Assembly: GCA_016934255.1 (NCBI GenBank)
Contig: JAFGTG010000478.1
Coordinates: 1 to 41,890, forward strand
Reading direction: 5' to 3'
DNA from: Sedimentisphaerales bacterium
Lineage (GTDB): Bacteria; Planctomycetota; Phycisphaerae; Sedimentisphaerales; Anaerobacaceae
Length of the DNA: 41,890 nucleotides
Shown here: piece by piece, positions 10,555-40,200 of the stretch
How positions within the stretch are numbered: position 1 is the first letter of the stretch
Layout of the letters: every line of letters begins with the position of its first letter
Notes under the pieces: model-generated
What the model was told of the DNA's origin: nothing
Database searches by the model: none
What the model saw: the letters and a program-made list of their open reading frames with translations, nothing else
Position numbers and translations under genes: made by a program

Positions 10555-10657
10555 TCATTGACTATTGATGATTGACTATTTACTATTGCCCTTTCGAGTA
10601 GGACTAACAATGAATAGTAACAATAATAAATAGAAAATCGTAAATAGTAAATCCTAA
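10555..10657. repeat. Inverted degenerate word array A (AATAGTCA / TAAATAGTAAA words)
   Basis: The whole spacer between the divergent DUF434 and metallo-hydrolase genes is built of near-repeats. On the left (10555-10588) TTGACTATTGATGA and TTGACTATTTACTATTG follow each other. On the right (10608-10657) AATAGTAACAATAATAAATAG and GTAAATAGTAAATC follow. The right side is roughly the reverse complement of the left, so a long imperfect hairpin can form around a unique 19-nt centre. The array reaches both start codons. Confidence 0.8.
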
Positions 10658-11527
10658 ATGCCGAGCCACAACTTAGCCCAACTAACCATTGATGATCTGG
10701 ATATCATCGGCTATTCCGTCGCGGGTGAAGAGACCGTCGTCGCCGTGCCGCAACTGGATGTCTGCTTCGATATCGGCAAGGCGCCGGACCAGATCATTCC
10801 GATCAACCACGTCCTGCTCACGCATGGGCATATGGACCACGCCGCCGGGATCGCGTATTACCTTTCACAACGAAACTTCTGCGGGATGTCGGCCGGAACG
10901 ATCCTGGCCCCGGAAAACCTGCTGAAACCCATGAGGGACATTATTAACGCCTGGTCGAAGCTCGACGGCAATCGCATCCCGGCCAACCTCGTCGGCGTTA
11001 AGCCCGGCGACGAAGTCCGAATCAAGCCGAACCTGTTCGCCAAGGTTTTCCCGACCAAGCACAGTAGAGGCTCCGTCGGCTTCAGCGTTATCGAGAAGCG
11101 AAAAAAGCTCAAATCCGAATACCTCGGCCTGACGGGCCCGCAAATCGTCGAACTGAAAAAGAAAGGTATCGAAATCGACTATCCGCTGGAGCTGCCGATT
11201 GTCACCTACCTCGGTGACACGCAATACGTGGACTTCTCGCAATTAAACTATATCGCCGAGAGTAAAATCCTGATCGCCGAGTGCACCTTCTATGAAGGCG
11301 AGCATACGGACCGGGCGGAAGCCGGAAAACACATGCACATCGAGGAATTTGTCACCCTGCTGAAAAAGTTGAGAAACGAATACATTATCGTCACCCACAC
11401 GACGCAGCGCACCCCCATGCGGCAAATCCGAAAGATCCTCAGAGAAGCACTCCCCGCGGAAAAATACGACAAGGTCTTCCTCTTCATGGACAAACGCCCC
11501 CCTCATTCCTACCAGCAACCTCGATAA
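10658..11527 (+). CDS. Metallo-beta-lactamase fold hydrolase, RNase Z-like
   Basis: A 289-aa hydrolase. The main metal motif THGHMDH is at residues 55-61 (ligands His56, His58, Asp60, His61). Another histidine lies in FPTKHSRGS, an aspartate in TYLGDTQYVD, and the closing histidine in IVTHTTQR. The order and the IAECTFYEGEH block resemble RNase Z/ElaC-type or related beta-CASP-less phosphodiesterases, as in the small RNase Z-like proteins of Planctomycetes and plants. A tRNA 3'-processing role is possible but unproven. The ATG at 10658 has no Shine-Dalgarno sequence: the array runs into it. No other start fits, because the fold begins at about residue 10. Confidence 0.85.
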   Translation: MPSHNLAQLTIDDLDIIGYSVAGEETVVAVPQLDVCFDIGKAPDQIIPINHVLLTHGHMDHAAGIAYYLSQRNFCGMSAGTILAPENLLKPMRDIINAWSKLDGNRIPANLVGVKPGDEVRIKPNLFAKVFPTKHSRGSVGFSVIEKRKKLKSEYLGLTGPQIVELKKKGIEIDYPLELPIVTYLGDTQYVDFSQLNYIAESKILIAECTFYEGEHTDRAEAGKHMHIEEFVTLLKKLRNEYIIVTHTTQRTPMRQIRKILREALPAEKYDKVFLFMDKRPPHSYQQPR

Positions 11528-18733: not shown

Positions 18734-18736
18734 ATA

Positions 18737-18842
18737 AGTGCCTAAAGTTAAAAGTGACTAAAGTGACTAAAGTTAAACGGAACGTCATCATACGGAATTC
18801 ACTTTAGTCACTTTAGCTCATTTTAGTCACTTTAGCTCACTT
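18737..18842. repeat. Inverted degenerate word array B (AGTGACTAA word)
   Basis: The left arm (18737-18777) carries AGTGCCTAA, AGTTAAA, AGTGACTAA, AGTGACTAA and AGTTAA head to tail. The right arm (18800-18842) carries the reverse complement (CACTTTAGTCACTTTAG, then TTTTAGTCACTTTAGCTCAC). The arms flank a unique 22-nt centre. The left arm begins 3 nt upstream of the GT4 start codon. The same word is used at array C (23761-24015). Confidence 0.85.
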
Positions 18843-22175: not shown

Positions 22176-23753
22176 ATGGATATTCTAATGGAAACTTCCT
22201 TGGGGATCATCGGCGCTCTCGTGATCGGTCTTGCTCTGGGCGGATGTTTAGTCGCCATCATCACCCAGATGATCAGCCGGGCAAAGGCCAAAACCTTCCA
22301 GGAAGACCTGCAACGACAAATTGACGGGGCTAAAAAAGAAGCGGAAAACATCATCAAATCCGCCCAGATTGACGCGAAAGCCGAAACGATGAAACGGCGG
22401 GAACAAGTCGCCGCCGAGGCCGGTAAAATCCGGGCCGAACTGCACGAAAATGAATTACGACTCACCAAACGAGAAGATACCCTCGACCGCCAGACGGAAC
22501 TGCTCCAGCAGCGTGAAAAGGCCCTCAAACAGCAACATGAAGACAATGAACGAAGGGCGCGCAATATCACCCAGAATGAAAAACAACTCGCGGTGTTGAT
22601 TGCCCAGCAGAAAAACCAACTGCTCAAAATCACCGCGATGGACATCGAAGAAGCGAAGAGCCTGCTGTTAAAGCGTCTCGAAGATGAATGTGAGCACGAA
22701 ATGTCGTCTCTGATCCAGCGGAAGCTGGAAGAAACAACCGAAACGGCCGACGAAAAGAGCCGGGAAATCATCAGCGCCGCCATCCAGCGCTATGCCGCCG
22801 AGCATACCTGCGAGGTCACGGTCTCGACCGTCGAGATCCCGAACGACGATATGAAGGGCCGAATCATCGGCCGGGAAGGCCGGAACATCCGGGCGTTCGA
22901 GAAAGCAACCGGCGTGGACGTCATCGTCGATGACACACCCGGCATGATCGTCGTCAGCGGGTTCAATCCCGTCCGGCGGGAAGTGGCCCGCCTGTCGATG
23001 GAACGCCTCATACAGGATGGACGTATCCATCCCTCGCGCATCGAAGAACTCGTCGCCCAAACCAAAAAGGACGTCAATCACAAGCTCCTGCAGATCGGTA
23101 AAGACGCCGCCGTCGAGACGAACATTCGGGGCTTGAGCAATAAAGTCCTCAGCCTGCTCGGCGCTTTGAGCTATCGCACGAGCTACGGCCAGAACGTCCT
23201 GCGCCACAGCGTTGAGGTGGCTTTTCTGGCGCAGGTCATGGCCGACGAGCTCGGCCTCGACGGCACCATCGCCCGCCGGGCCGGCTTGCTGCACGATATC
23301 GGCAAAGCCATCGACCACGACGTCGAAGGCAATCACCCGACCATCGGGACCAATTTTCTCAAGCGTTTTAACGAGTCGCCGATCGTCCTTAACGCCGTTG
23401 CGGGTCATCATGGCGACGTTCCGCCGGATAATCCCTATACGCCGCTGGTGGCCGCCGCTGATGCGATCAGCGCCTCGCGTCCCGGCGCCCGCAGAGAAAC
23501 GCTCGAACGGTATATCAAACGGCTGGAAAAACTCGAGGAGATCGCCACGGGTTTCAAAGGCGTCGAGAACGCTTACGCCATCCAGGCCGGCCGGGAAATC
23601 CGCGTTATCGTCGCCGCCGACGAAGTGGACGACGAGGCCGCCGTCAAAGTGGCGCGGGACATCGCCAACAAGGTCGAGAACGAGATGACCTATCCCGGCG
23701 AAATCCAGATCACGCTGCTCCGCGAGGTCCGCTGTATCGAATATGCGAAATAA
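22176..23753 (+). CDS. rny: Ribonuclease Y
   Basis: A 525-aa membrane-anchored endoribonuclease that starts mRNA decay. Standard RNase Y order is complete: an N-terminal membrane helix (about 8-31), a long Lys/Glu/Gln-rich coiled coil (about 35-205), a KH RNA-binding domain whose GxxG loop lies in RIIGREGRNIRAFE (229-242), and an HD phosphohydrolase domain with His373-Asp374 in LLHDIGKAID, HH in AGHHGDVPP, and the closing Asp in VAAADAIS. Length matches the family (about 510-525). GGAAAGG lies 9 nt before the ATG. It is followed by the ymdB-like gene, the same neighbour as in Bacillus subtilis, although here a 270-nt repeat region separates them. Confidence 0.96.
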   Translation: MDILMETSLGIIGALVIGLALGGCLVAIITQMISRAKAKTFQEDLQRQIDGAKKEAENIIKSAQIDAKAETMKRREQVAAEAGKIRAELHENELRLTKREDTLDRQTELLQQREKALKQQHEDNERRARNITQNEKQLAVLIAQQKNQLLKITAMDIEEAKSLLLKRLEDECEHEMSSLIQRKLEETTETADEKSREIISAAIQRYAAEHTCEVTVSTVEIPNDDMKGRIIGREGRNIRAFEKATGVDVIVDDTPGMIVVSGFNPVRREVARLSMERLIQDGRIHPSRIEELVAQTKKDVNHKLLQIGKDAAVETNIRGLSNKVLSLLGALSYRTSYGQNVLRHSVEVAFLAQVMADELGLDGTIARRAGLLHDIGKAIDHDVEGNHPTIGTNFLKRFNESPIVLNAVAGHHGDVPPDNPYTPLVAAADAISASRPGARRETLERYIKRLEKLEEIATGFKGVENAYAIQAGREIRVIVAADEVDDEAAVKVARDIANKVENEMTYPGEIQITLLREVRCIEYAK

Positions 23754-23760
23754 CGGAAAA

Positions 23761-24015
23761 AAGTGACTAAAGTGACTAAAGTGACTAAAGTGAACTAAAG
23801 TGTCTAAAGTGAACGAAAGTGAACGACAGTAAAAACGAAGCTGTCATTCTGAGCGCAAAGAGCCTTTAGCCCTGAGCGAAGCCGAAGGGGAAGAATCTTG
23901 TTCGTAAGCCAGACCCCTCAGCGGAGTTTACCCTGAGCACAGCCGAACGGGTTCGGGATGACACTTACGTGTCATTTTTGGCACTTTAGGCACTCTCAAC
24001 TTTAGGCACTTTTAA
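23761..24015. repeat. Inverted degenerate word array C (AGTGACTAA word) around a palindromic insert
   Basis: The left arm (23761-23830) has seven head-to-tail copies of a 9-10 nt word: AGTGACTAA three times, then AGTGAACTAA, AGTGTCTAA, AGTGAACGAA and AGTGAACGAC. The right arm (23969-24015) has the inverse word as GGCACTTTAGGCACT and CTTTAGGCACTTTTA. The arms enclose a separate element at 23840-23964. The array starts 7 nt after the rny stop and ends about 10 nt before the next start codon. Confidence 0.87.
23840..23964. repeat. REP/MITE-like palindromic element inside array C
   Basis: The element begins CTGTCATTCTGAGC and ends CGGGATGACAC, so its ends pair (TGTCAT with ATGACA). Inside are two forms of the phrase CCTGAGC-(g)A(A)GCCGAA-(c)GGG, near 23871-23889 and 23931-23951. 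TCATTCTGAGCG...GAAGAATCT-type sequences recur as dispersed repeats in many bacterial phyla, so this is likely a member of a known style of non-coding repeat, without any coding capacity. Confidence 0.65.
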
Positions 24016-24024
24016 AATCTAATT

Positions 24025-24876
24025 ATGAAACTCAATATCCTATGCATAGGTGACATTGTCGGCCGGCCCGGCAGACGAATCATTGCCGACAAGCTTAAAG
24101 CCCTGGTCAAGGAGCGCAGCATTGATTGCGTGATCGCCAACGCCGAAAACGCCGCCGGCGGCTCCGGCCTGACGCCGCAAATCTACAACAAACTACTCCG
24201 CTACGGCGTCAACCTGATCACGTTAGGCGACCACACCTATCGCAAGCGGGAAATCATCCCGACGCTCGAAACCGCCGACAACATCGTCCGCCCGGCTAAT
24301 TTCCCTACCAGCGCCGCCGGCAAAGGCACCGCGATGTATAAGACCGGCAAAGGACCGACCGTGGCCGTCGTCGCCCTGATCGGCCGGCTTTTTATGAAGC
24401 CCGGCGACTGCCCGTACAACATGATCGATCGCATTCTACCTCGGCTCCAGCAGGAAGCGGATGTCATCGTCGTCGATATGCACGCCGAGGCCACCAGCGA
24501 AAAGATCGCGATGGGCTACCATCTGGACGGCCGGGTCAGCCTGTGCTTCGGCACGCACACTCACGTCGCGACCGCCGACGAGCGAATCATGCCCAAGGGC
24601 ACCGCCTACATCACCGATATCGGCATGACCGGCCCGCACGACTCCATCCTCGGCCGGGGCGTCGAGAGCGTCCTGAAGTCGTTCCGAACGCAGATGCCGT
24701 ACCCGTTCGAGATCGCCACCGACGACGTCAGAATGAACGGCGTCTTAGCCACCATCGACAGCCACACCAAGAAGGCTGAACGCATCGAGCGCATCCGCAT
24801 CGACGCCGAGACCTCCGACGCGACCAGTTACGACAGCGACGACGGCAAGCCCGAATATCTCAACAACCACTTTTAA
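24025..24876 (+). CDS. ymdB: YmdB-family metallophosphoesterase
   Basis: A 283-aa member of the TIGR00282/YmdB family, a di-metal phosphodiesterase shown in Bacillus to act on 2',3'-cyclic nucleotides and to affect biofilm gene expression. Motifs: CIGDIVGRPGRR (Asp10 metal ligand), ANAENAAGGSGLT (Glu41-Asn42), TLGDHTYRKREI (Asp69-His70), VVDMHAEATSEK and FGTHTHVATAD (His ligands). At residue 69 most relatives have Asn (GNH); here it is Asp. The C-terminus has about 20 extra polar residues. It pairs with rny as in Firmicutes. No Shine-Dalgarno precedes the ATG, as array C occupies the leader. Confidence 0.92.
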   Translation: MKLNILCIGDIVGRPGRRIIADKLKALVKERSIDCVIANAENAAGGSGLTPQIYNKLLRYGVNLITLGDHTYRKREIIPTLETADNIVRPANFPTSAAGKGTAMYKTGKGPTVAVVALIGRLFMKPGDCPYNMIDRILPRLQQEADVIVVDMHAEATSEKIAMGYHLDGRVSLCFGTHTHVATADERIMPKGTAYITDIGMTGPHDSILGRGVESVLKSFRTQMPYPFEIATDDVRMNGVLATIDSHTKKAERIERIRIDAETSDATSYDSDDGKPEYLNNHF

Positions 24877-25130
24877 ACTCGTCTTGCGTCTTTCGTCTTG
24901 CGTATCGCGTATTGCGAATCCAGCTCGACATATTGGCTTTGATTGGCTTTGTTTTTGGGTGGTTTACTCAATCAGTTCATCACGCAACTCCTTATAAACA
25001 AGATGATTAAGCCGCTTGCGGGCCTAAGCCAATTGGCTTTGTTTTGTAAATTCGTTCTCGCAACACACATCACGCAATCCTCAATACGAAGTCAATTGGC
25101 TTTGTTTTACACAATCACCCTCCTTTTTGT
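24877..25130. repeat. Repeat locus D (CGTCTTGCGT words and ATTGGCTTTG units)
   Basis: Directly after the ymdB stop, CGTCTTGCGTCTTTCGTCTT and TGCGTATCGCGTATTGCG form a word array. ATTGGCTTTG then occurs at 24932, 24942, 25032 and 25095; the last two copies continue as TTTT. ATCACGCAA plus a TCC-like tail follows the units at about 24979 and 25069, so a 60-90 nt composite unit is repeated. The later CGCAATCCTCAATACGAAG is roughly the inverse of the starting words. No gene. Confidence 0.75.
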
Positions 25131-25603
25131 TTAGGATTTAGAAATTAGAACTTCGGATTTTCGGCCGGAGGCCGGCATTGGGTTCGTTTTGTAAAAGGTA
25201 CCACGAATCCGCATGAAAAAACGCGATTTTTTGGCGTTTTTGAAACGGAAACCCAGGATAAATGACGGTTTTTGTGAAAAAATGTGAATTTTTGTGCATT
25301 TTTAGTGTTTTTCGACACGACTCAACACGGTTTAGGATTTGTTTTCATTAACCGCGGATTCCGCGGATGACGCGGATAAATTTACAATAGTCAATCGTCA
25401 ATAATCAATAATCACTGATCAATAGAGGAGGTCTTCTGATGGCCCGATTCCCTTTCTTTTTTATTTGGTCTGATGTCTAAGGTCTGAAGTCTTGAGTCTA
25501 TTGTCTGACTTCTGTCTCCTGTCTCCTGTATTCTGCTATTCTATCTATATATTAGATATGTATTATACAAACACATTCGCTTGATGTCAAATGAATTTTT
25601 CTA
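25131..25603. repeat. Gene-free mosaic of short word arrays
   Basis: No coding region. Pieces in order: TTTAGGATTTAGAAATTAGAACTTCGGATTT-type words (25130-25165), a GGCCGGAGGCCGGC palindrome (about 25168-25181), T-rich spacers, CCGCGGATTCCGCGGATGACGCGGAT (25353-25378), the AATAGTCAATCGTCAATAATCA words (25386-25425) that also make up array A, and GTCTGATGTCTAAGGTCTGAAGTC followed by CTTCTGTCTCCTGTCTCCTGT (25478-25540), whose word returns at the tolC-like gene. A sizeable part of this DNA therefore shares words with the other arrays in the window. Confidence 0.65.
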
Positions 25604-25941: not shown

Positions 25942-27717
25942 ATGTTTGGAATGGCGAACATTACGACATACGGGATGAGTTATACGAAATTAATCCTGGC
26001 AACGATCATTACTACCATGAGTCCCGTTTCTCAGGTTCATGGCGAAGAAACGACCGTTCTAAATACAGAGACATCCATTCAATCCAAAGAACAAACAAAG
26101 GTCTCCGATCCTGTTTCTACCGACGATGAACTTTCGAAACGGATTAAACAGTTAATCAAAAGCCTGGAATATCCTGATAAAATCGCCGAAGATTTCGATC
26201 GAATGGTCATGGACTGGAAGGATGAGTTCGGTCGCCCTGTTCTGATTATTTGGAAGGATAGACTTATCAACGCCTACCAGGATTATCAAGAAGGCAAAAT
26301 ATCCAGGATCCAGGTTGCGAACATTGAGGAAAATGTTTTAGAGGAACTTGGCAAGAAAATTAAAAAAGAGTTTAGTTCTAAAAGGGTTTTCGAGCTTGGT
26401 GATGTGATTGAAAATCGACAGGCGAATTGTCTGGGGTATTCGCAATTGGTGTATATAATCGGAAATGCGATTGGGCTTTCGGTTAGATCTATAGATGTGT
26501 TGGATCAAGTCGTGTTTGTGGAAGGGGGAAGGGACGCGAAGGGAGGTCATGTAGCTTGTATCGTGGATTTATTTGATGGCCAAGTAGTAATCGCGGACAT
26601 GACATGGTTCTACGAGATAAGCTTGTTTTTTAAACTTAAGGATCAGTTTGTAAAGGTAGGTAATTATTGGGAACTCAAGAACAAAGATAATCCATTGCTC
26701 GTTCATACAAGAATCCGGCTCTTGGATAAAAGAGGACTTCTTGCTGGGATACATAACAGTCGAGGAGTAGTCTATAAATCCAGAGGTGAATATGATAGAG
26801 CCATACTGGAGTATAACAAAGCCATTGAGATCGATCCTGGATCAACTAAGGCCTATCACAATCGGGGCAACGCCTATCAAGAAAAAAGCGAATATGACCG
26901 AGCCATCCGGGATTATACAATGGCCATTGAGATCGACCCCAATTACGCTATAGCCTATACGGGTCGCGGCAACGTTTTCAATGCCAAAGGGGAGTACGTT
27001 CGCGCCATTGAAGATTACACAAAGGCTATCCAATTCGATCCAAAATTTGTTGAAGCCTATAACAATCGGGGAATTACCTATGCATACAATGGTGAGTATG
27101 ACCGGGCCATTCTGGATTTCACCAAAGTAATCGAGATCGATCCCAAATATACTGATGCCTATATCAACAGGGGATGTGTCTATGAAAACAAAGGCAAATA
27201 TGATCGGGCCATTCAGGACTATATAAAGGTCATTGAGATCGATCCAGAAGATGCTAGTGCCTACAATAATCGGGGCAATATCTATACAAACAAAGGCGAA
27301 TATGACCGGGCCATTCTTGATTATGACAAGGCCATCGAGATCGATCCAAAGTATGCTGTGGCCCATTACAATCGGGGGAATACCTATTATAAAAAAGATG
27401 AGTATGATCGGGCCATTCTGGATTATGACAAGGCCATTGAGATCGATCCATACTATGCTGTGGCATATAATAATCGGGGCACTGCCTATTATGAAAAAGG
27501 TGAGTATGACCGGGCTATTTTAGATTATGACAAGGTGATTGAGATTAATCCAGGATGCGCCGTTGCATATTTGGATCGGGGAGAGTTTTATGCCGAGTTA
27601 GGAAAATCTGAAGAAGCTAAAAAAGATTTGCTGAAAGCTCTCGAATTAGATCCGGAACTCAGAGACTCTGTAAAAAAGATATCCGAACAGTATGAATTCA
27701 ATCTCAAGCTCGATTGA
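25942..27717 (+). CDS. Exported transglutaminase-like / TPR protein, paralog 2
   Basis: A 591-aa paralog of the 14073 gene. An N-terminal signal segment covers about 12-33 (SYTKLILATIITTMSPVSQV). The transglutaminase-like domain carries Cys163 (QANCLGYSQLV), His203 (KGGHVACIVDLF) and Asp219 (VVIADMTWF), the same triad as paralog 1, with a 13-residue insertion before the His. Nine TPR units of exactly 34 residues follow (about 250-560). Several are nearly identical at DNA level (GGGCCATTCTGGATTATGAC, AAGGCCATTGAGATCGATCC), which points to recent unit duplication. The tail ends EFNLKLD, matching paralog 1 (DLNLKLN). AGGA stands 8 nt before the ATG. Function unknown; a scaffold or envelope hydrolase is possible. 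Confidence 0.82.
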   Translation: MFGMANITTYGMSYTKLILATIITTMSPVSQVHGEETTVLNTETSIQSKEQTKVSDPVSTDDELSKRIKQLIKSLEYPDKIAEDFDRMVMDWKDEFGRPVLIIWKDRLINAYQDYQEGKISRIQVANIEENVLEELGKKIKKEFSSKRVFELGDVIENRQANCLGYSQLVYIIGNAIGLSVRSIDVLDQVVFVEGGRDAKGGHVACIVDLFDGQVVIADMTWFYEISLFFKLKDQFVKVGNYWELKNKDNPLLVHTRIRLLDKRGLLAGIHNSRGVVYKSRGEYDRAILEYNKAIEIDPGSTKAYHNRGNAYQEKSEYDRAIRDYTMAIEIDPNYAIAYTGRGNVFNAKGEYVRAIEDYTKAIQFDPKFVEAYNNRGITYAYNGEYDRAILDFTKVIEIDPKYTDAYINRGCVYENKGKYDRAIQDYIKVIEIDPEDASAYNNRGNIYTNKGEYDRAILDYDKAIEIDPKYAVAHYNRGNTYYKKDEYDRAILDYDKAIEIDPYYAVAYNNRGTAYYEKGEYDRAILDYDKVIEINPGCAVAYLDRGEFYAELGKSEEAKKDLLKALELDPELRDSVKKISEQYEFNLKLD

Positions 27718-37030: not shown

Positions 37031-37160
37031 CGAAATCCTAAATCCGAAACAAATTCAAAATCCAAATGACATAAATTCAAAACAGAATTTGCGCCGTGAG
37101 CCGGGATTGAGACGTTTTTATTTTGAACATTCGGATTTCGGATTTAGAAATTCGGATTTC
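37031..37160. repeat. Inverted degenerate word array H (AAATCCGAA / TTCGGATTT word)
   Basis: The left arm reads CGAAATCCTAAATCCGAAAC, then AAATTCAAAATCCAAATG and AAATTCAAAAC. The right arm reads GTTTTTATTTTGAACA, then TTCGGATTTCGGATTT and AGAAATTCGGATTTC. They are inverted to each other around a GC-richer centre (37087-37112). The array fills the gap between the convergent GH130 and membrane-protein genes and ends a few nt before the latter's stop codon. Confidence 0.82.
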
Positions 37161-38337: not shown

Positions 38338-40020
38338 CTAATCCGTCGTCGGCACAATCGGTTCCCATCCCACTTTCGCCGCACCGAGGAGGGTGCCGGT
38401 CGCATAGGCCAGATCGACGAGAGCAATCTGATATTCCGCAAGGGCCTGTATCTCGGCGCTTTGGGAATTGGCAAAATTCGCCTGGGTCTGGAGCACGTCG
38501 GTCGAGGTGTTCAGGCCAAGCTCGAACTGGCGTTTCTCCGCCTCGAACAACCGGCCATCCAGGATCGTGCTTTGCCGGCTGGCCAACACCCGCTGCCAGT
38601 TTGCCTCAAGCTGATCGACGGCGTTGAGCACCTCCAGCTCGATCATCGCCTGGCGATTTTCCCGGCTGGCCAATCGCTGTCGGCGCTGATAAAAGGCCTG
38701 CCGGAGCCGGCTCTTGGCCGCCCCATTACCCAGCGGCACCTCCAACTGCAATCCCACGCGATGATCCTCGAATCGTGTATCAAAAAGCAAATCAAACGAA
38801 TCGTCCCGGGTCGCCCCCAGACCGTTAATATTATACGTATAACCCAAGGTCACCAACGGAAGGGTTTGATTCTTCGCATATTCCACTCCGGCGACGTCTT
38901 CGGCGATTTGCAGTTCCAGTTCAAGCAGCTCCATCCGATGCTCCATCGCCGTCGTCACCAACCGCTTCCTCTCCAACTCATACCGCACGGGATCGGGCTC
39001 GGTCCCAGGGATCAGCACCGTCGGGGTCTGCATCCCCAGACCCACCTTATTAAGCGTCCGCTTGAGTTCACGCTCCCGATCGCGCACATTGTTCTCCGAA
39101 ATGATGATGGCCTCAAGCTGCTGGGCCACGCCGGCCTCGGTCCGGATCACCTCCACTTGGGGTTTGTCCCCGGCGTCCACAAAACGGAGCGCCTGTTGGT
39201 ATAGCGCCTCCGCCAGATCATATTGTTTCTTGCGAACCTCCAATTCCCGCCGGGCGGCATACAGTCGCCAGTACACGCGGTCCACCGCGGCTATCACGCT
39301 GATCACTTCAAGTTTGGTTCGGGCGTCGGTGATTTGTCGTTCGTATTCGGCGATGCGAATAGAATAGGTGTTGACACGTCTCCCGGCGTTACGAAGGAGA
39401 GGCTGACTGATCGACAGGGACATATCTGAACTATAAGAAGGATCGAAAATCGAGTAGGGCGATCCGGTCTTCAAGCGAGCATCCGCCATGTCAAAGTTAA
39501 TCGTCCCACCGGTTCGCAAAGGGACCTGCACACCGAGACCCGCCCCGAAATAGTCGGTTTGCGAGCCTGAAATTTCATCGAGAAATGAGGCGGTCGGCGT
39601 ATCCTGCTTGACATAATTCACATTCGAAGTAAATGCCGCCTCGAACCGGGCCTCTTCCTGGCTGACTCTCTCGGCGGCCATGGCCGGGCTGATAAGCTGC
39701 ACCTTCAGTTCGAGGTTATTCTCCAGCGTCATGGCCCGGCACTGCTCCAGACTCAGCTCAAGCTCTTTCGCCGGGGCTTCATTCACGTCGTTGATATCCC
39801 GAACCTGCTCTTCGGGCTTGGCCTCTTTCAATTCAAGCGTTTGAACTTTTCGAAACCTTTCAGGGGGAATTTGGAGGGCGTAGGGATCCTTCTTACTGAA
39901 AAGATCACACCCGCACATAAGACAGAGGACAGAGATCAGAAGACAGAAAACAGACGACCTGATAAACGACGGACGACGGACGAGGGACGAGAGACGCAAA
40001 GCAAGTAATACTTCGTCCAT
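38338..40020 (-). CDS. TolC-family outer-membrane efflux lipoprotein
   Basis: About 560 aa from the ATG at 40020. The frame stays open to 40206, but that part is repeat array and lacks protein-like sequence. The N-terminus is a lipoprotein signal with lipobox near LMCGC. After a linker comes the outer-membrane efflux protein fold with two repeats of long helices: LEQCRAMTLENNLELKVQL at the start, SISQPLLRNAGRRVNTYSIR strand, DRVYWRLYAARRELEVRKKQYDLAEALYQQA, and a second half with GVEYAKNQTLPLVTLGYTYN, VGLQLEVPLGNGAAKSRLRQA and FELGLNTSTDVLQTQANFANSQ. It would form the outer-membrane channel for the MacB-like pair encoded just upstream. TolC proteins with a lipid anchor belong to the OprM-like type. 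Confidence 0.88.
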   Translation of the reverse strand: MDEVLLALRLSSLVRRPSFIRSSVFCLLISVLCLMCGCDLFSKKDPYALQIPPERFRKVQTLELKEAKPEEQVRDINDVNEAPAKELELSLEQCRAMTLENNLELKVQLISPAMAAERVSQEEARFEAAFTSNVNYVKQDTPTASFLDEISGSQTDYFGAGLGVQVPLRTGGTINFDMADARLKTGSPYSIFDPSYSSDMSLSISQPLLRNAGRRVNTYSIRIAEYERQITDARTKLEVISVIAAVDRVYWRLYAARRELEVRKKQYDLAEALYQQALRFVDAGDKPQVEVIRTEAGVAQQLEAIIISENNVRDRERELKRTLNKVGLGMQTPTVLIPGTEPDPVRYELERKRLVTTAMEHRMELLELELQIAEDVAGVEYAKNQTLPLVTLGYTYNINGLGATRDDSFDLLFDTRFEDHRVGLQLEVPLGNGAAKSRLRQAFYQRRQRLASRENRQAMIELEVLNAVDQLEANWQRVLASRQSTILDGRLFEAEKRQFELGLNTSTDVLQTQANFANSQSAEIQALAEYQIALVDLAYATGTLLGAAKVGWEPIVPTTD

Positions 40021-40200
40021 CGTCCATCCGTGTCGCGGGCATCTTGCCCGCGATTCGAGGGCGGGACGCCCTCGGCACGAGGAACGAATGACGCAAGATG
40101 AATCGTCCTTCGTCCCTCGTCCTCCGCAAGGAGTCCCGAGGACTTTCGTCCATCGTCGTTTTTTGTCTGTCATCTGTCGGCTGCCTTCTGTCATCTGTTT
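39921..40200. repeat. Nested word array J (TCTGTC and CGTCCGT words) with a double hairpin core
   Basis: Two words are nested. Outer: GACAGAGGACAGAGATCAGA at 39921 and its inverse TCTGTCATCTGTCGG at about 40166-40200. Inner: GACGGACGACGGACGAGGGA at about 39968 and its inverse CTTCGTCCATCGTCCATCC at 40011 and TCGTCCTTCGTCCCTCGTCC at 40104. The core has two perfect 7-bp hairpins, CGCGGGC-ATCTT-GCCCGCG (40034-40052) and GAGGGCG-GGA-CGCCCTC (40057-40073). The left half lies inside the tolC-like reading frame; the right half fills the gap to the permease stop. Confidence 0.87.

Follow-up and report, generated by a model that had tools for sequence, protein, structure and literature searches.

The gap between rny and ymdB is occupied by a real nested repeat with three levels. 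It combines familiar components (REP pairs, MITE-like ends, and arrays of the type found in intervening sequences, IVSs) in an unusual way. The reading we favor, and regard as probable, is that a MITE-like outer element related to IVSs encloses a REP-pair module, which in turn carries two small palindromes. The more notable lead was an association, seen across Planctomycetota, of facing word arrays with open reading frames (ORFs) of the PF05635 family. Small repeats stacked three deep inside a conserved gene pair also bear on how far operons tolerate insertions.

A repeat of three levels between rny and ymdB

In the window (the whole stretch of 41,890 nucleotides that was analyzed), rny and ymdB are 271 nt apart, and repeat fills nearly all of this distance. 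The order is left word array, junction palindrome, 122-nt core, second junction palindrome and right word array (Table 1). The initial annotation had reported arrays and an inner element between genes for RNase Y and YmdB; its coordinates and motifs held when the sequence was re-read, and Pfam agreed with its gene names. For the left array, TRF gave 6.8 copies of a 9-mer (score 94; a 19-mer reading scored 105), with AGTGACTAA present exactly three times and the other units reading AGTGAACTAA, AGTGTCTAA, and AGTGAACGA(A). Matches to the word with at most one mismatch numbered 12 in the window, compared to a shuffle mean of 3.99, and 12 was reached in 0 of 100 shuffles. The right arm, annotated as the inverse of the left, proved to be a different conserved end (TRF score 32) and no strict inverse. 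Both outer ends are built from 9- to 10-nt words, with ends A and B non-identical.

The inner element had the inverted ends TGTCAT and ATGACA that had been described, with a length of 122 nt rather than the 125 nt claimed. The two CCTGAGC..AGCCGAA.GGG phrases noticed in its body were also exact (23871-23890 and 23932-23951). The annotation's two nested levels stood, and what it saw merely as "phrases" turned out to mark a third: when the window core was aligned to another core copy as reference (L265), gaps of 30 and ~25 nt appeared. We read these inserts as two palindromes of ~25 to 30 nt, one per REP half. They are of the CCCTGAGC..AGCCGAA.GGG type, which was found without the outer arms at four loci (L008, L009, L014, and L015). 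With up to three mismatches the phrase matched three times in the window (0.07 expected), and a looser form had 7 matches in sampled contigs totaling 565 kb, against none in any of 5 shuffles.

Table 1. Positions of the genes and repeat features in the window
Feature	Position	Strand	Basis
rny (RNase Y), upstream gene	22176..23753	+	ORF; Pfam RNase_Y_N, KH_1, HD
End B, left arm of the outer element, with words AGTGACTAA / AGTGAACTAA / AGTGTCTAA / AGTGAACGA	23760..23822	+	TRF; family copies
Left junction palindrome GACAG..CTGTC, degenerate form of other copies' GTGACAGCnAAGCTGTCA	23825..23845	+	Sequence
Core, two REP-like half palindromes, TGTCATTCTGAGC...GGGATGACA	23842..23963	+	Genome matches, classified copies
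Third-level insert 1 (..AGCCTTTAGCCCTGAGCGAAGCCGAAG), inside first half-palindrome	23858..23887	+	30-nt gap vs core copy L265
Third-level insert 2 (..AGTTTACCCTGAGCACAGCCGAACGGG), inside second half-palindrome	23923..23951, limits approximate	+	Alignment; same type in L009
Right junction palindrome TGACACTTACGTGTCA	23959..23974	+	Sequence; conserved in arm+core copies
End A, right arm of the outer element, conserved, with irregular words	23976..24012	-	TRF; 24-element alignment
ymdB, downstream gene	24025..24876	+	ORF; Pfam YmdB, E 4e-103
Second outer-element copy, spacer only, without core	18736..18842	.	TRF, word search, alignment

The core occurs inside and outside the outer element

The genome that contains the window is a metagenome-assembled genome (MAG; 85.8% complete, 5.07% contamination). 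A search with the core gave 50 matches in it, and the core half TCATTCTGAGCGNAGCGAAGAATCT, allowing one mismatch, gave 48 (control, 0). The same half was matched in 34 of 99 genomes, other families included, again with 0 control matches. Regular expressions classified 40 of the 48 own-genome matches: 14 lay in the arms of the outer element, hereafter AGTG arms (13 of them with arms on both sides), 19 were enclosed by the ends of another element, unrelated to the first (TAAGGCACTCTAACAAAACC ... GGTTTTGTTAGAGTGCC), and the remaining 7 had neither type of end. Paired inverted halves were visible in most of the 40 copies. The orientation of the core relative to A and B went both ways, with A on the left in L250, L264, L265, and L272 and B on the left in L234, L253, L268, L271, and the window. 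Within the halves, the second element had an insert of the CCCTGAGC..CGAAGG type in at least 8 of the 40 core copies.

The initial annotation had taken the structure for one repeat inside another, and arms without core, core without arms, and both relative orientations were all found. It had proposed a search for the inner element with and without the arms, and had named as the alternative a single conserved repeat in which the inner element always comes with the same arms; 26 of the 40 classified copies (of 48 matches) lay outside AGTG arms, which contradicts that alternative. A broader version, in which arms and core form one conserved family with a fixed core and partial copies are decay products, gains from the stereotyped junctions (GTGACAGC.AAGCTGTCATTC ... 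GGGATGACACTTACGTGTCACTTTAG) of most of the 14 arm-plus-core copies and from the occurrence of the composite in another genus (L189). We nevertheless consider it unlikely, given the core copies in different ends or in neither, the two orientations, and the fact that arms with spacer only were as common as filled ones (13 versus 10 of 24, by eye). The elements with the second set of ends form a MITE-like family of their own (L236-L273, e.g., L239, L244, and L259), with ends TAAGGCACTCTAACAAAACC..GGTTTTGTTAGAGTGCCTTA and the same REP-pair core as the AGTG-arm copies.

The core resembles the GTAG and CGTC families of REP/BIME sequences in that these are short intergenic palindrome pairs, head to head, in tens of copies, as far as the sections of PMC3733652 available to us describe them. 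That paper describes REP dimers set within longer palindromes in A. variabilis and H. neapolitanus. This raises the question of whether the whole composite, arms included, is a REP/BIME system mobilized by a RAYT (Y1 transposase); the core is an inverted palindrome pair in tens of copies, and 5 Y1_Tnp matches were found in the own genome. However, the exact core motif TGTCATTCTGAGC or the arm word was present in the fetched flanks of 0 of these 5 loci in the 85.8% complete MAG, so that no flanking RAYT was found, and the halves begin TGTCATTC / GTCATCC, lacking the GTAG or CGTC tag. In further contrast to REP/BIME sequences, the outer palindrome here consists of word arrays that are freely found without the dimer. 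We regard mobilization of the whole by a RAYT as the least probable of the alternatives weighed here. On the nested reading, the REP-pair (BIME-like) module would have been set inside the arms in either orientation.

The outer element is a dispersed family with two different ends

The exact two-word arm pattern AGTGNCTAAAGTGNCTAAAGT had 23 matches at ~19 places in the own genome, compared to 0 for the reversed pattern, and was present in 16 of the 99 related genomes searched (own included), all of the same family. A 22-letter arm pattern with up to three mismatches gave 39 matches, but its backward control gave 18, and we therefore relied on the exact search. The arm pattern alone reached 24 places, where by eye 13 had a short spacer only, 10 the core, and 1 a remnant of a 23S-intervening-sequence protein (IVP) gene. 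Among 60 sampled contigs totaling 565 kb, 0 AGTG arrays were found where about 2 were expected, which may reflect an uneven distribution or a mixed bin.

We aligned 24 spacer-only elements from the own genome and relatives. End A, AACTTTAGGCACTTTAGTCACTTTTAACTTTAGGCACTT, was strongly conserved, and end B consisted of the words AGTGAGCTAA / AGTGACTAA. Spacers were mostly 9 to 30 nt long and mostly unique in sequence, and the simplest form of the element is ~100 nt long; a form of AAAAAATATTCCACA recurred as spacer in L175, L176, and L203. MITEs are short, non-coding, dispersed elements with facing ends. The outer element is like them in its facing terminal repeats, its lack of an ORF, its dispersed copies, and an apparent internal-deletion derivative (L048, see below). 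It is unlike them in that its ends are tandem words and in that neither a parent transposase nor, with the genus represented by one genome, a target-site duplication was identified, and it differs from an ordinary recent MITE in its mostly unique spacers. We would describe it as a MITE-like, intercistronic element in which tandem words of 9 to 10 nt face each other.

Among 39 elements assessed with simple ORF calls, most sides closely abutted coding sequence, and in several elements (e.g., L045, L047, L057, and L059) the first word, with its TGA, appeared to supply the stop codon of the neighboring gene. Among 29 scored gene contexts, 8 were convergent (stop/stop). A rule placing end B after stop codons and end A before starts was not supported (A/start 11, A/stop 12, B/start 8, B/stop 17; Fisher P = 0.38).

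Could the word arrays instead be simple slippage repeats (STRR-like) that grew in place, their pairing a product of chance or of quasi-palindrome correction? Loci do differ in the number of copies and in the spelling of the words, TRF found many kinds of short word repeats to be common in the window, and heptamer arrays between genes have been described for other phyla (PMC4679880, in the sections available). In the Beggiatoaceae of that study, TAACTGA arrays adjoin starts and, like the elements here, are short words with stop codons beside gene ends; unlike the window element, they are direct repeats (169 sets versus one indirect repeat) and, in those sections, enclose no module. What makes in-place growth improbable for the AGTG family, somewhat more so than a single family with a fixed core, is that one asymmetric pair of ends recurs at ~19 own-genome places and in 16 of 99 related genomes with its A end conserved, and that the arm copies occupy non-orthologous sites. 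Moreover, the arms of one element were less alike than arms taken across elements (0.493 compared to a permuted mean of 0.542; 2000 of 2000 permutations were higher). This is the opposite of what correction within an element's hairpin, keeping its two arms alike, would give, and such correction was rejected.

The rny-ymdB junction in related genomes

A ymdB gene followed rny in 40 of 47 related loci, and several of the remaining 7 ended at contig edges. The gaps ranged from 1 to 1250 nt (median, 54 nt; two gaps were 1 nt), and a longer gap is therefore tolerated in other lineages. Most of the 40 gaps had neither arms nor core, so that sites without the element are plentiful. One relative with an rny 80% identical to that of the window (L097) had AGTG arms around a short spacer but lacked the core, and because its A-like and B-like ends are, by eye, reversed relative to the window, a separate insertion is suggested. 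Other gaps held other inserts: a PF05635 ORF flanked or adjoined by TCGTATG-type arrays (L088, L095, and L122), parts of a PF05635 ORF (L109 and L118), or GTTGCTCGTTG-type arrays around a CCCTGAGT..CGAAGGG palindrome (L111). The variety of these inserts shows that the junction takes insertions repeatedly. A further gap, of 802 nt (L099), had two additional small ORFs adjoining TCGTATT-type words, which we take to be a nucleotidyltransferase/HEPN-type pair.

Predicted folding of the insert and its consequences for rny and ymdB

RNA of the gap had a predicted folding energy of -87.8 kcal/mol, compared to -65.2 kcal/mol (standard deviation, 4.7) for shuffled sequences (z = -4.81; 0 of 200 shuffles as stable); this z-score follows from the inverted arms and is no evidence of function. 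Scans of positions 23600-24100 for sigma-70 promoters and for terminators returned 0 and 0, and Rfam gave no match up to an E value of 1 for positions 23000-25000.

A regulatory hairpin in the RNA, governing how strongly RNase Y and YmdB are expressed relative to each other and perhaps itself cut by an RNase, would agree with the position of the composite wholly between both genes, on the transcribed strand, with the predicted hairpin, and with the absence of an internal promoter or terminator motif from the scan. Yet copies of this family also separate many unrelated pairs of genes, convergent ones included (8 of 29 contexts), L097 alone among the relatives' gaps listed has the same arms and none has the core, two relatives manage with gaps of 1 nt, and Rfam offers no counterpart. 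We hold a regulatory role to be about as improbable as growth by slippage.

On the nested, IVS-related reading, the insert would join the transcript and, as predicted by folding, form one long hairpin with an intact cistron on either side, in the manner of rRNA IVSs. By analogy with these, RNase III would probably cut in the arms, and the two messages would survive separately. Any stop-start translational coupling of ymdB to rny should be broken by the insert, whereas termination of transcription would not be expected, and the overall effect on the operon may be close to neutral.

Facing word arrays accompany PF05635 ORFs across Planctomycetota

PF05635 is the family of the S23 or IVP proteins. 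The own genome had 10 matches to it, compared to 0 in 14 control genomes. In one element on contig C472 (L278), a PF05635 ORF (E = 5.7e-19) lay directly between AGTG arms. This was the single clean AGTG-arm IVP element seen in the own genome. Since the conserved form of end A is missing from its arms, the IVP could be just another cargo. On the same contig, another AGTG element (L048) retained, beside its arm, ~70 nt that match the end of the PF05635 ORF of L278, and from this alignment it appears to be an internal-deletion derivative of an IVP-bearing AGTG element. In another genus (L187), an IVP match lay beside AGTG arms, with an extra array separating the left arm from the match and a stop in the frame.

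We then scored facing arms at PF05635 loci generally, by aligning the upstream flank to the reversed downstream flank. The set comprised 37 ORFs (9 own, 28 from relatives; 2 of 39 were dropped at contig ends). The mean score was 23.9, compared to 12.4 for 1332 swapped pairs of IVP flanks and 12.0 for 341 control genes, the controls coming from the own genome only and the IVP loci being the best-scoring ones. Scores exceeded the control 95th percentile (15) at 34 of the 37 loci and the 99th (19) at 26; they were less extreme against swapped flanks, with 29 above the swapped 95th percentile. With shorter, stricter flanks, 22 of 37 loci exceeded the control 99th percentile and 10 the swapped 99th. 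A draw across the phylum gave similar results. PF05635 was present in 58 of 119 genomes, and 27 loci (2 of 29 were dropped) had a mean of 26.4 versus 12.7 for swapped flanks; 26 of them exceeded the 95th percentile and 24 the 99th of the own-genome controls, and 24 the swapped 95th.

Arm words differed among these loci (L274-L312 and L314-L342), for example ATCAGG, TCGATTG, GTCGGAC, GGTTCGTAGG, and GTGTCTGG. Some sub-families had words in common, such as GCGTATT in L274, L292, L299, and L304 or AGTGACTAA here, so in at least some cases the words are passed on together with the element. Searches of open-licence PMC papers turned up no description of PF05635 ORFs flanked by word arrays, nor of the AGTG family. 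A junction before a gene start provides a further observation: it carries AGTG arms in the own genome (L062) and, in four relatives (L294, L299, L303, and L304), a PF05635 element with GCGTATT- or GCGTACT-type arms. The gene after it is, judging from its peptide, presumably DnaJ-like.

PF05635 is reported to resemble Avd, the accessory protein of diversity-generating retroelements (PMC10053308, in the part available). A reverse transcriptase as partner of the Avd-like protein was considered and set aside: there was one RVT_1 match (L313, contig C273), retron-like by eye, with no arm link seen.

Relation to intervening sequences

The Coxiella IVS is described in the available sections of PMC4990558 as a selfish element in helix 45 of the 23S rRNA, whose terminal inverted repeats form a 28-bp stem and which is excised by RNase III. 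It carries an S23p ORF preceded by tandem heptamers (GACAGAT) that vary in number between strains. The composite in the window is like the IVS/S23p elements of Coxiella and Leptospira, as those sections present them, in its facing, stem-forming terminal repeats, in tandem heptamers by the stem, in a site that tolerates a hairpin, and in the PF05635 ORF of a putative parent form. It is unlike them in lying between protein genes, outside 23S rRNA, and in carrying a REP-pair core and no PF05635 ORF.

We suggest that the outer element belongs to a wider Planctomycetota group of intercistronic elements that consist of a PF05635 ORF (S23/IVP, an Avd-like four-helix bundle) bounded by facing word arrays, with ORF-less copies being internally deleted or cargo-carrying derivatives. 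More tentatively, and with slightly less than even confidence, we propose a class of intercistronic "intervening sequences" in Planctomycetota. PF05635 ORFs between lineage-specific word arrays would spread between packed genes and yield ORF-less, MITE-like derivatives that pick up repeats, and the IVSs of rRNA would represent the particular case of insertion into 23S genes. The joint change of words in both arms would be a signature of copying, possibly via the Avd-like protein. With many copies, an ORF-bearing form, a deletion derivative, relatives that lack the ORF, and empty sites in the same genomes, the family offers a way to test both the movement of IVS/S23p elements and the role of the widespread PF05635 protein outside rRNA genes.

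Other repeats in the window

Word arrays of other kinds were present elsewhere in the window: CGTCTTG (24880-24920, beginning a few bases past the ymdB stop), TTGGCTTTG (24932-24951), CAATAGT (25385-25425), ATTGACT/AATAGTA (10557-10659), TTCGGAT (37120-37160), and ACAGAAG/ACGACGG (39915-40198). In addition, ~7.5 tandem repeats of 102 nt, which we assume to be TPR-like, occupied positions 26784-27552 within the ORF at 25942-27717.
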